From positions 1,217,766-1,281,765 of the forward strand of contig NZ_LHCI01000106.1 of NCBI RefSeq assembly GCF_001280255.1: a stretch of 64,000 nt of DNA, in the 5' to 3' direction. Every line of letters starts with the position of its first letter. Positions within the stretch are counted from its first letter, which is position 1. A program made the position numbers and the translations under genes. Of the stretch, positions 10,432 through 16,428 are shown in pieces. Source of the DNA: Thermus aquaticus (GTDB taxonomy: Bacteria; Deinococcota; Deinococci; Deinococcales; Thermaceae). Below the pieces are notes generated by a model, which searched no databases, was not told the origin of the DNA, and saw only the letters and a list, made by a program, of their open reading frames with translations.

Positions 10432-11463
10432 ATGCGGGCTTTGGCCAAACTGGCCCCTGAGGAGGGCCTAACCCTGGTGGAGCGCCCGGTGCCCGAGCCT
10501 GGCCCCGGGGAGATCCTGGTGCGGGTGGAGGCTGCCAGCATCTGCGGCACCGACCTCCACATCTGGCGGTGGGACGCCTGGGCCAGGGGGCGGATCCGCC
10601 CCCCCCTCGTCACCGGGCACGAGTTCAGCGGGGTGGTGGAGGCCGTGGGCCCCGGGGTGAAGCGGCCCCAGGTGGGGGACCACGTGAGCCTGGAAAGCCA
10701 CATCGTCTGCCACGCCTGCCCCGCCTGCCGCACGGGCAACTACCACGTCTGCCTGAACACGGAGATCCTGGGGGTGGACCGGGACGGGGGCTTCGCCGAA
10801 TACGTGGTGGTGCCGGCGGAAAACGCTTGGGTGAACCCCAAGGACCTCCCCTTTGAGGTGGCGGCCATCCTGGAGCCCTTCGGCAACGCCGTGCACACCG
10901 TTTACGCGGGGAGCGGGGTCTCGGGGAAGAGCGTCCTCATCACGGGGGCGGGGCCCATCGGCCTTATGGCGGCCATGGTGGCCCGGGCCAGCGGGGCGGG
11001 GCCCATTCTGGTCTCCGACCCTAACCCCTACCGCCTGGCCTTCGCCAAGGCCTACGCCGACCGCCTTATCAACCCCTTGGAGGAGGACCTCCTAAAGGTG
11101 GTGCGGGAGGTGACGGGAAACGGGGTGGAGGTGCTTTTGGAGTTTTCCGGGAATGAAGCCGCCATCCACCAGGGCCTCAAGGCCCTCATCCCCGGGGGGG
11201 AGGCCAGGATCCTCGGCATCCCCTCGGACCCCATCCGCTTTGACCTGGCGGGGGAGCTGGTCATGCGGGGGATCACCGCCTTTGGCATCGCCGGGCGGCG
11301 GCTTTGGCAGACCTGGATGCAGGGCACGGCCCTGGTCTACTCGGGGCGGGTGGACCTTACGCCCCTCCTCACCCACCGCCTGCCCATGAGCCAGTACCGG
11401 GAGGCCTTCGGCCTCTTGGCCTCGGGCCAGGCGGTGAAGGTGATCCTGGACCCCAGGGCCTGA
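10432..11463 (+). CDS. tdh: L-threonine 3-dehydrogenase
   Basis: This zinc-dependent medium-chain dehydrogenase oxidises L-threonine to 2-amino-3-ketobutyrate with NAD. Catalytic zinc ligands are Cys38 (SICGTDLH) and His63-Glu64 (TGHEFSG). The four structural-zinc cysteines have the spacing [15 protein letters not shown]. The NAD-binding loop is [12 protein letters not shown]. Its 343 residues and sequence match what I recall of the T. thermophilus enzyme almost throughout. A TAGGAT box lies 9 nt before the ATG, inside the end of the tamB-like gene. A GC hairpin follows the stop codon. Confidence 0.95.
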
Positions 11464-11480
11464 GGCCGCCTTTTTCGGGT

Positions 11481-11510
11481 GGGGGGAGAGGGGGCGGGGC
11501 CCCCCTCCCC
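11481..11510 (+). terminator. GC hairpin after tdh
   Basis: GGGGAG pairs with CTCCCC around a GGGG/CCCC inner stem, 20 nt past the tdh stop. No T-tract directly follows, so termination is plausible but not certain. Confidence 0.4.
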
Positions 11511-11512
11511 GT

Positions 11513-11580
11513 TTAAGGTTTTTGTAAGCCCCCTTGAGGAGGATGGAGGTAGGGACCCCAGGGTCCCGGGAAGGAGGCAG
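11513..11580 (+). repeat. Repeated 5' leader, copy 1 (long form)
   Basis: This 68-bp leader precedes the lipoprotein gene at 11583. It begins TTAAGGTTTTTGTAAG and ends with a hairpin (GGGACC, CCAG, GGTCCC) followed by the ribosome-binding sequence AAGGAGG. The same sequence occurs at 14646-14713 with only a few substitutions, and its last 39 bp recur at 13282-13320. The conserved TAAGGT could be part of a promoter. Confidence 0.8.
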
Positions 11581-11582
11581 GT

Positions 11583-13262
11583 ATGCGTAAAGGCGTGTGG
11601 CACGGACTCTTGACCGGTTTAGCCCTGCTCTTGGCGGCCTGCGGGGGCGGGGGCCAGCCCCAGCCAGACCTCACCCTGGCGGGGATTTCGCCCCAGAATC
11701 CCACCGTGGTCCAGGGGGAGACCGTGACCCTGACCCTCACCTTCGCCTCGCAGAACGGCTTCCAGGGGCCGGTCTCTCTGATCGTCTTAGAGGGGGGGCA
11801 GCCCGTCTCCTGGCTGAGCCCCAACGCCGTCCAGCGCAACCTGAACGTGCCCAGAGGCCAGCAGGTGCCGGAGACCCTGCAGGTGCAGGTGGCTCCGAAC
11901 GCCCCCACAGGGAGCCGGAACCTCACCGTGCGGGCGGCCTACGGGAACCAGGTGACCGAGCGGGCTCTTACCCTCACCGTGAACGCGCCCCCTGACTTCG
12001 TCATCTCCCTCAACCCCACGAGCCTCTCGGTCCAGCAGGGGGGTAGCAACTCCACCCAACTGACCATCACCCCCCAAAACGGCTTCACCGGGACGGTGAG
12101 CCTCTCCCTAGTGGCGGGGCAGGACCAGGTGCCCCAGGGCCTCACGCTTTCTCCCGATACGGTCCAGGTTGGTACGAGCTCCCTGACCCTCTCCGCCCAG
12201 CCCACCACGCCCACGGGCACCTACCGCCTCAAGGTGCGGGGGACCTCGGGGAGCCTCATCCGGGAGGCGGACCTGACGGTGACAGTCTTGACGCCCTACA
12301 CCAACGCTTACGTCTACCAGGTCTCCGGTGACGGAAGCGTTCTTGTTGGGGGCGCCCTCGTGTCGGGTGCCCGTAGGCCCATGGTCTGGCGGATCAACGC
12401 CGCTTCCCTCTCCCCGGGCTTCTACTGGCTGAGCGCCATCGCCCAACAGGCCACCGTCCTGGACACGGGCGTTCCCAGTACTCCTTACGGGATTGTTCTG
12501 GGGGTTACTGCCGACGGCCAGGTGGGTTGCGGCTACGGTAGCGCGTCTACCAGCGCGTCTTCGGGGGACAGGGCCCTGGCCTGGGACCTGACCACCCTCC
12601 AGCCCATCCCCCTTCCCGATCACCCCGCTGGCGGCAACGTGGCCTACGCTTGCGCTAAGAGTGGAGGCGACGTCTACATCGTGGGACGGGTATACCCGGA
12701 CTTTCCTACACCTACCATCTGGAAAAACTACACCATCTGGCATCAGAACACCAGAGTTAATTACGGCATCTTCCACGACATCACCCCGGACGCCAGCAAG
12801 GCCTCGGCTCAGTTGGTATACCAAGGATGGGTCTACGACCTGAACGGCAATCAGTACACCCAGCTGGTCTCCCGCATTGGCGGGGCCTACTGGAGCCGGA
12901 TCTCCCCCGACGGGCAGGCCGTGGCCTTCTCGGACAGCAACTCTTCCGCAAGAGCCAAGGTGTGGTACGGAGGCAACGTCTACAGCGTCAACATGAGTTT
13001 TGGCGCCGTGCGCGTTAGGGACGGCGTGGCCTACGTCTTCGGAAGCTCAGATGGGCTTGCCGTTCGCTGGCGGAGCGACACCCAGGCGGTGGAGAACCTG
13101 AACACCGTCTTCGCCGATGTGTTGCCGCCGGGGGTCACCCTTAAGGGTATCTCTGCGGTAAGCCTTGACAACCGCGTCATCGTGGGCATCGCCTTTAACT
13201 CTACCACTTCTCAGGACGAGCCCTTTGTCCTTGTGGGGGATCCGTTCCAGGGCGCTCCGTGA
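11583..13262 (+). CDS. Secreted lipoprotein with Ig-like repeats and beta-propeller-like C-terminus, unknown function
   Basis: I do not recognise this as a named family. The N-terminus is a lipoprotein signal peptide with the lipobox LLAAC (Cys20). Two similar modules follow, at roughly residues 28-135 and 136-235, each with DFVISLNPTSLSVQQGG-like starts and TGTYRLKVRGTSG-like ends. They resemble bacterial Ig-like or COG1470-type envelope domains. The remaining roughly 320 residues contain short blocks such as SGDGSVLVGG, SRISPDGQAVAFSD and DVLPPGVTLKGIS, similar to WD40-like or extracellular repeat propellers. Base composition is slightly less GC-extreme in this half. It is the first of three genes sharing one leader. 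Confidence 0.7.
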   Translation: MRKGVWHGLLTGLALLLAACGGGGQPQPDLTLAGISPQNPTVVQGETVTLTLTFASQNGFQGPVSLIVLEGGQPVSWLSPNAVQRNLNVPRGQQVPETLQVQVAPNAPTGSRNLTVRAAYGNQVTERALTLTVNAPPDFVISLNPTSLSVQQGGSNSTQLTITPQNGFTGTVSLSLVAGQDQVPQGLTLSPDTVQVGTSSLTLSAQPTTPTGTYRLKVRGTSGSLIREADLTVTVLTPYTNAYVYQVSGDGSVLVGGALVSGARRPMVWRINAASLSPGFYWLSAIAQQATVLDTGVPSTPYGIVLGVTADGQVGCGYGSASTSASSGDRALAWDLTTLQPIPLPDHPAGGNVAYACAKSGGDVYIVGRVYPDFPTPTIWKNYTIWHQNTRVNYGIFHDITPDASKASAQLVYQGWVYDLNGNQYTQLVSRIGGAYWSRISPDGQAVAFSDSNSSARAKVWYGGNVYSVNMSFGAVRVRDGVAYVFGSSDGLAVRWRSDTQAVENLNTVFADVLPPGVTLKGISAVSLDNRVIVGIAFNSTTSQDEPFVLVGDPFQGAP

Positions 13263-13281
13263 GCCCACACGGTTGCCGGGA

Positions 13282-13320
13282 TATGGAGGTAGGGACCCCG
13301 GGGTCCCGGGAAGGAGGCAG
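13282..13320 (+). repeat. Repeated 5' leader, copy 2 (short form)
   Basis: This holds the 39-bp 3' part of the leader: ATGGAGGTAGGGACC, hairpin, AAGGAGGCAG. The hairpin loop differs (CCGG instead of CCAG), making it a perfect palindrome while the stem is unchanged. The upstream A/T-rich part is absent, so this gene is probably co-transcribed with the one before it. Confidence 0.8.
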
Positions 13321-13322
13321 AG

Positions 13323-14630
13323 ATGCGCAGGACCAAACGGATGGTTGCCACCTGGTGGTCTGCCTGCGCTAGCCTGGCCCTGGCGCAGGACCTCCTCCAG
13401 GAGCCGGCTTCTCCCGGAAGGGCCCCGGGGCTTCCCCTTTGCCTCCTGGCCCTGGTCTACCTCCTCCTCTTCCTCATCGCCCGCACGTACCTCATCGCCT
13501 GCCCCTCCCGGGCCCTGGCCCGGGCCCAGTTGGAGGGGCTTTGGGCCGAACACGTGCAGGGGTGGGAAGAGGGTCAGAAGCAGGAGGACGACCAGAAGAA
13601 GCGGGACGCCCGGGAGGACACCGAGGAGTGCCTGCGAAAGGCTCGGGATCTTTTGGAAGGGCGGGGCTTCTGGGGCCAGATTTGGACACGTCTCTCCCTC
13701 CTCCTCTGGAACGGCGAGCGGGAGATGGCGGCCTGGGCCCTAATGCACCGGGCCGAGCGGCGGGCGGTGGAGCTAATGAAGGATGAGGAGGTGAGGGCCC
13801 GCCTGGTGCGGGGCCTGGGGGAGCTCGGGGTGTTCTCGGAGGAGGAAAAGGCGCTTTGGCGGAAACAGCTAAAGCGTGCCCTAGGCCTGGAGGGCCAGGA
13901 CCCCCAACAGGGGTCCCCATCCCAGGGTGGAGGCTCCGGCAATGAGATCGTGCCTAGTGCGCTTTCACCTTCCACCGACCCTCAGGAGCCTGGCCAGGGT
14001 TCGGGTCAAGCAGAATCCAACGCCCGGTGTTGCCAAAAGCCAGACTCCAGGGTGCAAAGGGCCCTCCTGGAGGAGTTTTTGGCCGCCCTCTACGACGCCC
14101 GGGACACGAGGTACGCCCGGCTCCTCACCCTGCACAACAAAGCGGCTTGGCTTCTCCTGGTGGGGCTTGGCCTGGCGTGGGCCCTGGGGTCCTTCGCTCC
14201 CGGGCTTCCCAACGGGCTAGACCTGGGGACGGGGCTTCTTCTGGGCTTCCTCGGGGGAGTCCTTTCCCGGCTCCTGCGGGTGGTGGCCACGAAAGAGCTT
14301 CCCACGGACTACGGGGCCTACTGGGTCCCCCTCTTCCTGGCCCCGGTGCTGGGGGCCCTGGGGGCGGTGGGGGGGTACTTGGTCTTCTGGGCCTTGGTGG
14401 AGGTCCGGGCCTTGGGAGAGGGGCTAAAGCCCCTCCTCAGCCCGCCCGCCGCCTACGGGCTCTTGGTGGTCCTGGGGTTCTCGGAGCGCCTGCTAAAGGG
14501 ACTCACGGAGAGGTTGGAGGACCAAGCTCTGAAGCAGGAGGACCAGGGCAAGGAGAAGCCCAAGGGGGACGGAGAAGAAGACCATGGGAAACCGAAAGAC
14601 CAGCCCGCCCGGCGCTGGGGTAGGGGGTAG
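13323..14630 (+). CDS. Membrane protein of unknown function
   Basis: The protein has 435 residues and no family that I recognise. A signal-like N-terminus is followed by a hydrophobic segment near residues 37-60 (LPLCLLALVYLLLFLIARTYL). Next comes a charged, helical, probably cytoplasmic region (residues 65-190), a Gly/Ser/Gln-rich linker, and a C-terminal block with about four membrane segments (AAWLLLVGLGLAWALG, GLLLGFLGGVLS, APVLGALGAVGGYLVFWAL, AYGLLVVLGFSERLL). The last 35 residues are highly charged (KQEDQGKEKPKGDGEED). It is the second gene of the repeated-leader cassette; its neighbours are two lipoproteins, which suggests an envelope role. Confidence 0.7.
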   Translation: MRRTKRMVATWWSACASLALAQDLLQEPASPGRAPGLPLCLLALVYLLLFLIARTYLIACPSRALARAQLEGLWAEHVQGWEEGQKQEDDQKKRDAREDTEECLRKARDLLEGRGFWGQIWTRLSLLLWNGEREMAAWALMHRAERRAVELMKDEEVRARLVRGLGELGVFSEEEKALWRKQLKRALGLEGQDPQQGSPSQGGGSGNEIVPSALSPSTDPQEPGQGSGQAESNARCCQKPDSRVQRALLEEFLAALYDARDTRYARLLTLHNKAAWLLLVGLGLAWALGSFAPGLPNGLDLGTGLLLGFLGGVLSRLLRVVATKELPTDYGAYWVPLFLAPVLGALGAVGGYLVFWALVEVRALGEGLKPLLSPPAAYGLLVVLGFSERLLKGLTERLEDQALKQEDQGKEKPKGDGEEDHGKPKDQPARRWGRG

Positions 14631-14645
14631 TGAGGTGGGGGGTGG

Positions 14646-14713
14646 TTAAGGTTTTTGTAAGCCCCCCTGAGGAAGATGGAGGTAGGGACCCCAGGGTCCC
14701 GGAAAGGAGGCAG
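14646..14713 (+). repeat. Repeated 5' leader, copy 3 (long form)
   Basis: This is nearly identical to the leader at 11513-11580, including TTAAGGTTTTTGTAAG, the GGGACC/GGTCCC hairpin and the AAGGAGG site just before the start codon. The similarity stops at the start codon, because the proteins are unrelated beyond their signal-like ends. Confidence 0.8.
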
Positions 14714-14715
14714 GG

Positions 14716-15288
14716 ATGCGTAACGGCAAAGGGTACGGCTTTCCGGCAAAGGGCTGGCTCTGGGTAGGGCTCCTTTTGGGGGTTTCCGCCTGTAGCGTCC
14801 CTTTCAGCTACGAGGTCAACGTCCTGAACTACGCCGACCTCTCGGGCACCTTCACGGTGGGGCAGGGGGGGATCAATCCCAACCCCCAGACGGTGGGCCC
14901 CGTGGAGATCCAGTACACCCCCGACCCCCGGGTGAACCTCACGGGGGCCGTCCTGGACTATAAGGTTTGCTTCGCTTCGGAGACCCCGGGAGCGAGCTTC
15001 CGGGGGAGCGTGGCCTACACCGCCTACCTGGGCGGGGATGCGGGGACGCTCTTCCTGGAGGCCAACAAGCTGGCCGAGGGTACAAAGGATGTCTCGGGCC
15101 TCTCCACGGGGGAGGTGTGCGTGGAGGGGCAGGCCCAGGCCACGGCGGCCCAGGTCCAGGCTTTGCAGAGCGGCACCTTCTACGTGGGGGCCAGGATCTC
15201 CGGGGATGCCACCAGCGACCAGGAGGCCACGGTGCGCTACCGCACGGAGCGGTTCCTCCTCAGGCTATCCGGGTCGGTGCGGCCCTAG
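14716..15288 (+). CDS. Putative lipoprotein, unknown function
   Basis: The protein has 190 residues with a lipoprotein signal (WLWVGLLLGVSAC, Cys26). The mature part is beta-rich and polar (FTVGQGGINPNPQTVGPVE, TGAVLDYKVCF, SGDATSDQEATVRYRTERF) with two cysteines that could form a disulfide. I do not recognise a family. It is the third member of the repeated-leader cassette, and a GC-rich hairpin follows the stop. Confidence 0.7.
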   Translation: MRNGKGYGFPAKGWLWVGLLLGVSACSVPFSYEVNVLNYADLSGTFTVGQGGINPNPQTVGPVEIQYTPDPRVNLTGAVLDYKVCFASETPGASFRGSVAYTAYLGGDAGTLFLEANKLAEGTKDVSGLSTGEVCVEGQAQATAAQVQALQSGTFYVGARISGDATSDQEATVRYRTERFLLRLSGSVRP

Positions 15289-15332: not shown

Positions 15333-15366
15333 TGGCCTTAGGGTAGTCTTTCCCAGAGGAGGCACC

Positions 15367-16428
15367 ATGCTGAGCCGCAGGCGGCTTCTTGCGGGGCTTT
15401 TGGGCCTAGGGCTTTCCCGGGCCCAGGGGCTCAGGGCCGAGGAGGTGGTGGGGGCCCTCGAGGTCCCCTGGGCCCTAGTCTTTTTGCCCGATGGGGGGAT
15501 GCTGATCTCGGAAAGGCCGGGGAGGATCCGGCTCTTCCGGAGCGGGCGGCTTTCCACCTACGCCGAGCTTCCCGTCTACGCCCGGGGGGAGTCGGGGCTT
15601 TTGGGCCTGGCCCTCCACCCTCGGTTTCCCGAGGCGCCCTATGTCTACGCCTACCGCACGGTGGAGGCGGGGGGCCTGAGGAACCAGGTGGTGCGCCTCC
15701 GCCACCTGGGGGAGAGGGGGGTCTTGGAGCGGGTCATTCTGGACGGGATCCCCGCCCGGCCCCACGGCCTCCACTCGGGAGGCCGGATCGCCTTCGGACC
15801 GGATGGGATGCTCTACGTGACCACGGGGGAGGTCTACGAGCGGGAGCTGGCCCAGGACCTGGCCTCCTTGGGGGGGAAGGTCCTCCGCCTCACCCCGGAA
15901 GGGGAGCCCGCCCCGGGGAACCCCTTCCTGGGCCAGAAGGGAGCCAGGCCCGAGATTTACAGCCTGGGCCACCGGAACCCCCAGGGCCTGGCCTGGCACC
16001 CCGTGACGGGGGAGCTCTTCCTGAGCGAGCACGGGCCCAGCGGGGAGCAAGGCTATGGCCACGACGAGGTGAACGTGGTCGTCCCTGGGGGGAACTACGG
16101 CTGGCCGAGGGTGGTGGGGAGGGGGAACGACCCCCGGTACCGGGACCCCCTCTACCTCTGGCCCCAGGGCTTTCCCCCGGGGAACCTGGCCTTCTTCCGG
16201 GGCGGGCTTTACGTGGCCGGGCTTAGAGGAGAGGCCCTTTTGCGCCTGGACCTCGAGGGGGAAAGGGGGCGCTGGCGAGTGGCGGGGGGGGAGACGGCGC
16301 TATCCGGTTTTGGCCGCCTGCGGGAGGTCCAGGTGGGGCCGGACGGGGCCCTCTACGTCACCACCTCCAACCGGGACGGGCGGGGAAGGCCAAGGCCCGG
16401 GGACGACAAGGTGCTTCGCCTGGCTTAA
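15367..16428 (+). CDS. Secreted sugar dehydrogenase of the GDH/sorbosone dehydrogenase family
   Basis: Family members are six-bladed beta-propellers that oxidise aldoses with PQQ in the periplasm. The N-terminus SRRRLLAGLLGLGLSRAQG is a signal with a possible twin-arginine motif. Family blocks are visible: DGGMLISERPGRIRLF, ESGLLGLALHPRF, GGRIAFGPDGMLYVTTGE, LGHRNPQGLAWHP, EHGPSGEQGYGHDEVN (calcium/PQQ region) and VPGGNYGWP. I chose ATG 15367 because AGAGGAGG lies just upstream; this gives 353 residues. An upstream in-frame start at 15307 would precede the signal peptide. The actual substrate cannot be read from sequence. Confidence 0.88.
   Translation: MLSRRRLLAGLLGLGLSRAQGLRAEEVVGALEVPWALVFLPDGGMLISERPGRIRLFRSGRLSTYAELPVYARGESGLLGLALHPRFPEAPYVYAYRTVEAGGLRNQVVRLRHLGERGVLERVILDGIPARPHGLHSGGRIAFGPDGMLYVTTGEVYERELAQDLASLGGKVLRLTPEGEPAPGNPFLGQKGARPEIYSLGHRNPQGLAWHPVTGELFLSEHGPSGEQGYGHDEVNVVVPGGNYGWPRVVGRGNDPRYRDPLYLWPQGFPPGNLAFFRGGLYVAGLRGEALLRLDLEGERGRWRVAGGETALSGFGRLREVQVGPDGALYVTTSNRDGRGRPRPGDDKVLRLA

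Follow-up and report, generated by a model that had tools for sequence, protein, structure and literature searches.

A genus-wide family of predicted activator-box promoters with 5′ hairpins in front of Thermus lipoprotein genes

Why do three consecutive envelope genes of Thermus aquaticus carry the same sequence directly in front of their start codons? In the 64,000-nucleotide stretch of DNA that we analysed (the window), window comparison places copies of one leader directly 5′ of the ATG codons at 11583, 13323 and 14716, all on the forward strand, as are the other features located below in window coordinates. Gene 1 (11583-13262) encodes a 559-residue lipoprotein with Ig-like (NEW3-type) domains, gene 2 (13323-14630) a 435-residue membrane protein with no confident family, and gene 3 (14716-15288) a 190-residue lipoprotein of a Thermus family, so the initial annotation was right to list the products as two lipoproteins and one membrane protein. 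The trio is flanked by genes for a zinc alcohol dehydrogenase (10432-11463) and a glucose/sorbosone dehydrogenase (GSDH; 15361-16428).

The repeat that the annotation described is real, with each copy ending at a start codon, and two copies are indeed longer and share an upstream block. Leaders 1 (11513-11582) and 3 (14646-14715) are full copies that match along all 70 nt, while leader 2 (13283-13322) is a partial copy comprising the last 40 nt. Leader 1 opens with the box TTAAGGTTTTTGTAAG (11513-11528; TTTAAGG-N4-TGTAAGC when read from the T at 11512), a predicted activator site at approximately -38 to -23 that is common to leaders 1 and 3 and absent from leader 2. It is followed 10 bp downstream by a predicted -10 element, GAGGAT (11539-11544), assigned from an alignment of 46 family sites, by the hairpin GGGACC-CCAG-GGTCCC (11552-11567), whose 5′ edge lies at the predicted +1, and by the Shine-Dalgarno sequence AAGGAGG (11571-11577). 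Leader 3 repeats this order with its box at 14646-14661, a predicted -10 element GAAGAT from the same alignment (14672-14677), the identical hairpin (14685-14700) and AAGGAGG (14704-14710); leader 2 holds a hairpin (13292-13307) and a Shine-Dalgarno sequence (13311-13317). The claim that similarity ends at the start codon fails for copies 1 and 3, in which a weaker likeness runs through roughly the first 20 nt of the signal-peptide codons. A varying loop on an intact stem had also been proposed; the stem is intact, and the loop differs by a single base (CCAG/CCGG) within the window.

A search with a 20-mer core of the leader, allowing up to 3 mismatches, returned 3 matches, all exact, against 0.22 expected. 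The 16-nt palindrome GGGACCNNNNGGTCCC, which forms the GGGACC-N4-GGTCCC stem, occurs only at the three leaders in the 2.25-Mb genome, with no occurrence outside a leader position, and a reversed control of the pattern occurs 15 times in the same genome. Our best explanation, which we consider probable rather than firm, combines a promoter with an OmpR/PhoB/WalR-type activator box, a protective 5′ hairpin, and recombination at the leader. A factor of this type would bind KTTAAGG-N4-TGTAAG, a direct repeat with 11-bp spacing that stands where a -35 element would be, and would bring RNA polymerase to the -10 element [T/G]ANNNT located 10 bp downstream of the box, and transcription would start about 7 nt past the -10 element, near 11550-11552 and 14683-14685.

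A box family across Thermus

To look for leader relatives upstream of other genes, as the annotation had proposed, we searched other Thermus genomes with a 75-nt leader query, and extracted and compared the matches, which proved to form a genus-wide family. The strictest common part of these relatives is TTAAGG-N4-TGTAAG rather than the hairpin; the most conserved element is thus the promoter box, which the initial annotation had left uninterpreted. The family core consists of the direct repeat KTTAAGG-N4-TGTAAG with 11-bp spacing, ten unspecified bases, and a -10-like [T/G]ANNNT. The pattern TTAAG-N5-TGTAAG is found at 56 places in 27 Thermus genomes and its reverse at none, and in the sites found KTTAAG and TGTAAG start 11 bp apart. 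When 46 distinct sites, many of them orthologous and hence not independent, were aligned on the box, [T/G]ANNNT fell ten bases 3′ of it, with A as the second hexamer base in 41/46 sites and T as the sixth in 40/46, and with little conservation upstream of CG[T/G]. The combination of box and -10 spacing was absent from all controls and, beyond Thermus, was found in 1 of 23 other genomes of the family, at two sites 1 kb apart. With 2 mismatches allowed, the box search gave 73 sites versus 2 in controls, several of these matches falling within reading frames. A stricter pattern, searched in named GTDB genomes, matched only Thermus altitudinis, T. arciformis and Thermus sp. 2.9. We rejected GGGACCNNNNGGTCCC as the family signature, as it occurs at 0-2 places per other Thermus genome and members there use other stems; judged from sequence, the signature of the family is the box. 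A near-match pair in contig C104 (TTAAGGTTTCTTTAAG) was dropped because it sits within an open reading frame, and covariance-model matches below approximately 25 bits, which mostly resembled coding sequence, were set aside.

Lipoprotein genes follow the box at 30 of the 46 distinct sites by a simple lipobox pattern and at 2 more by eye, giving at least 32/46. The box-led lipoproteins have unrelated folds, including RCC1 repeats, DUF6242/Ycf48-type propellers, Ig-like domains, the 190-residue family and proteins of no family, and the leader is therefore tied to an export class and not to one fold. Taken together, the family describes an apparently unreported Thermus regulon that has a very clean DNA motif and takes in many functionally uncharacterized surface lipoproteins; the motif makes the response regulator behind Thermus envelope control a testable question.

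Several further sites are of interest in their own right. The third box of this genome (G000:C106:1526999-1527031; L094) precedes a short open frame and has close by a divergent gene that encodes an ABC binding protein of zinc/manganese type; the box is kept in G013 and is also seen at L076. At L072, L077, L085, L183, L244 and L088, the box stands approximately 160-270 nt upstream of a secreted family with the motif QVYQNPALGM(A/S)FP(I/V)P, and a short open frame, often with a TTG start, lies between box and gene. The two boxes outside Thermus (L194, 1501 and 2547; G042, another genus of the family) precede a lipoprotein, with the motif LLAACGG, and a secreted protein, respectively.

The hairpin at the predicted 5′ end

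The initial annotation had proposed selection on RNA structure, and we asked what the hairpins of the family have in common. We folded 26 long leaders, picked by hand on the length of the leader and a start codon that could be recognized, irrespective of hairpin, and in 26/26 the stem starts within 0-4 nt of box+36, which is the predicted +1. The mean stem energy of these leaders is -13.0 kcal/mol versus -7.8 kcal/mol for shuffles, and 15/26 hairpins reach a p of 0.05 or less. The window hairpins taken singly give p values of about 0.04-0.12, and the GGGACC group contains no compensatory double changes in the genus alignment, so the covariance analysis that had been suggested for this stem gives no evidence of selection on it. 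Hairpins of at least 6 pairs (G-U allowed) upstream of a Shine-Dalgarno sequence are also common in this GC-rich window. Given the lack of covariation and this background, selection on RNA could not be established from the three window copies by themselves, and the claim of a preserved stem rests instead on the sequence-unrelated stems of other family promoters. Those of L024/L026, L062 (two), L071, L081, L087, L174 and L175 each have a p of 0.03 or less, and the unrelated stems include GAGCC/GGCTC, GGAGCGC/GCGCTCC, GGGGTA/TACCCC, CAGGGG/CCCCTG and GGAGTGCC/GGCACTCC, among others. Because unrelated stems recur at an equal distance from the box, the hairpin looks selected as a 5′-terminal structure, and the proposal of structural selection survives in this form, without covariation in the GGGACC stem.

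The same comparison bears on the idea that a dimeric repressor uses GGGACCNNNNGGTCCC as its DNA operator at +1, the RNA hairpin being incidental. Such an operator would fit the nearly perfect palindrome at the predicted start, the arms of which are conserved without covarying; we nevertheless regard it as unlikely, as unrelated stems occupy the same position in other box promoters, even within one genome (G006), the bulges or unequal arms of several stems suit RNA more than a dimer site, and the stem is kept in leader 2, which has no promoter box. The annotation's alternative of a protein-binding site finds its most likely place in the predicted promoter box TTAAGG-N4-TGTAAG and not in the hairpin.

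We give little credence to a translational control device that spread with the genes, whether a hairpin that masks and exposes the Shine-Dalgarno sequence or an RNA thermometer. The hairpin ends only 3-4 nt from the Shine-Dalgarno sequence in the window leaders, and leader 2 is reduced to these two elements, as such a device would predict, but the Shine-Dalgarno sequence lies outside the main stem when the leader is folded alone, in the window copies and in nearly all relatives, the predicted long-range pairing with coding sequence differs among copies, and an Rfam search gave no match above the gathering score at the leaders.

By analogy, a protective 5′-terminal hairpin is the most economical role and the most likely one. 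A long-leader mRNA would open with the hairpin, which would most likely shield the 5′ end from decay, with the Shine-Dalgarno sequence next. At 70 °C the hairpin has a modest calculated stability. It is missing from the short-leader part of the regulon and is therefore an add-on and not essential. Separately, a GGGGCCC-AAG-GGGCCCC hairpin stands directly before the Shine-Dalgarno sequence of a secreted protein gene with no box (L182, 1114-1153; G013), and such structures at the 5′ end may be more widespread in the genus.

Promoter reading and gene gain at the leader

Half-sites spaced by 11 bp are a signature of tandem-binding OmpR/PhoB-family regulators, and six OmpR-type C-terminal DNA-binding domains are encoded in this genome. 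A sigma-70 promoter scan of 11400-14800 found no -35/-10 pair, which is what dependence on an activator would predict; the -10 element stands at a fixed distance from the box and a good -35 element is absent. The -10 element of the window subfamily (GAGGAT) is weak, which counts against the promoter reading. A literature search, mostly of non-subscription journals, returned nothing relevant on a Thermus regulator with such a site. The box could instead be the promoter of an alternative sigma factor, with TTAAGG near the -35 position and a fixed spacing to the -10 element; this seems quite improbable, as two similar half-sites 11 bp apart, together with the 20 bp that separate TTAAGG from the -10 element, suit a tandem-binding activator better than they suit known sigma classes.

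On the number of copies and their arrangement, the relatives are informative. Empty sites in three of them (G026, G013 and G005) consist of genes for a TAM-like protein and the alcohol dehydrogenase, one leader, the 190-residue lipoprotein gene and GSDH, both window flanks being kept, and compared with these the window has two extra genes and two further leader copies in between. Since these relatives have only one leader between the alcohol dehydrogenase and 190-residue lipoprotein genes, two genes were gained here between leader copies. The flanks agree in placement: over 60 nt, the upstream flank of leader 1 is 80-88% identical to the empty sites and that of leader 3 58-62%, and the downstream flanks are 77-86% identical for leader 3 and 64-65% for leader 1. 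The nearest relative with gene 2 (G020) has the gain but no leader 2, and its gene 2 begins within the end of the gene before it. Leader 2 was therefore either lost from G020 or acquired together with, or later than, an exchange that replaced the 3′ part of gene 1. The suggestion of an element spreading together with the genes is thus borne out in part, by one leader at the empty sites and two flanking the extra genes here, and for copy 2 by its absence from G020. In a further genome (G018), two distant loci (L049, 4567-6083, and L050, 4714-6229), each with an Ig-like lipoprotein gene and its leader, are alike over approximately 1.5 kb at 98%, and the identity reaches no further than the 5′ edge of the box; on this similarity, the pair is a recent duplication or gene conversion.

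As the longest near-identical stretch among otherwise unrelated genes, the leader could supply the homology at which recombination takes place. An event that left one leader copy per end would have added genes 1 and 2 between the alcohol dehydrogenase gene and gene 3, and the partial leader 2 would have been copied in, probably later, as a hairpin plus ribosome site. Homologous recombination within the leader would account for the gain, for G020 and for G018 without any special mobile element. That the repeat is itself mobile or the target of a recombinase (a MITE, an IS end or an integron-like attachment site) and serves to move lipoprotein genes is very improbable, for although the two-gene gain is flanked by direct leader copies when compared with the empty sites and the box marks the exact end of the 1.5-kb duplication in G018, neither terminal inverted repeats nor target-site duplications were noticed around the leader copies, the constant distance to the -10 element and start codon reflects a promoter's needs, and ordinary homologous recombination ends where homology does.

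With recombination at a shared promoter-leader preferred, we tentatively raise the possibility that the leader is both a regulon switch and a standard joint at which naturally transformable Thermus swap and stack lipoprotein genes. If true, an incoming gene with the same leader would recombine there and would at once be under the right control. The locus is a concrete case in which a common promoter-leader appears to serve as homology for surface-gene gain.

Genes 2 and 3 differ in distribution. The family of gene 3 is present in 13/27 Thermus genomes, and its gene is apparently broken by a stop or frame break at G012:C61:35343-35906, G005:C42:12159-12728 and G001:C5:26659-27175, which suggests turnover. 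The gene 2 family is present in 4/27 genomes (window 13323-14630; L055, 1178-2251; G002:C2:51073-51828; L052, 2891-4170), and its members each have a box-led lipoprotein gene no more than a few kb away, which suggests a functional pair.

Comparison with known systems

The PHO box is composed of 7-nt repeats separated by 4 nt (PMC4415409), and the Thermus box is likewise two 7-nt direct repeats with a 4-nt gap, here placed 10 bp before the -10 element in place of a -35 element. The half-site differs, TNTAAGG here as compared with CTGTCAT or GTTCACC, and the targets are lipoproteins rather than known phosphate genes. The WalR consensus is TGTWAH-N5-TGTWAH (PMC4168254), and the half-site T[T/G]TAAG nearly fits the WalR/VicR box, with equal N5 spacing and envelope-protein targets. 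The strict consensus fails, however, since both half-sites end in G, a last base outside it, and the first half-site is KTTAAG; for this reason we do not assign the box to WalR.

Stabilization of mRNA by 5′ secondary structure is established in E. coli (PMC3997798). The Thermus hairpins are unrelated in sequence to the stabilizing stem-loops of E. coli ompA and papA, belong to a thermophile, and would have a stabilizing role by analogy, but like those stem-loops they stand at the (predicted) 5′ end of an exported-protein mRNA, ahead of the ribosome site.
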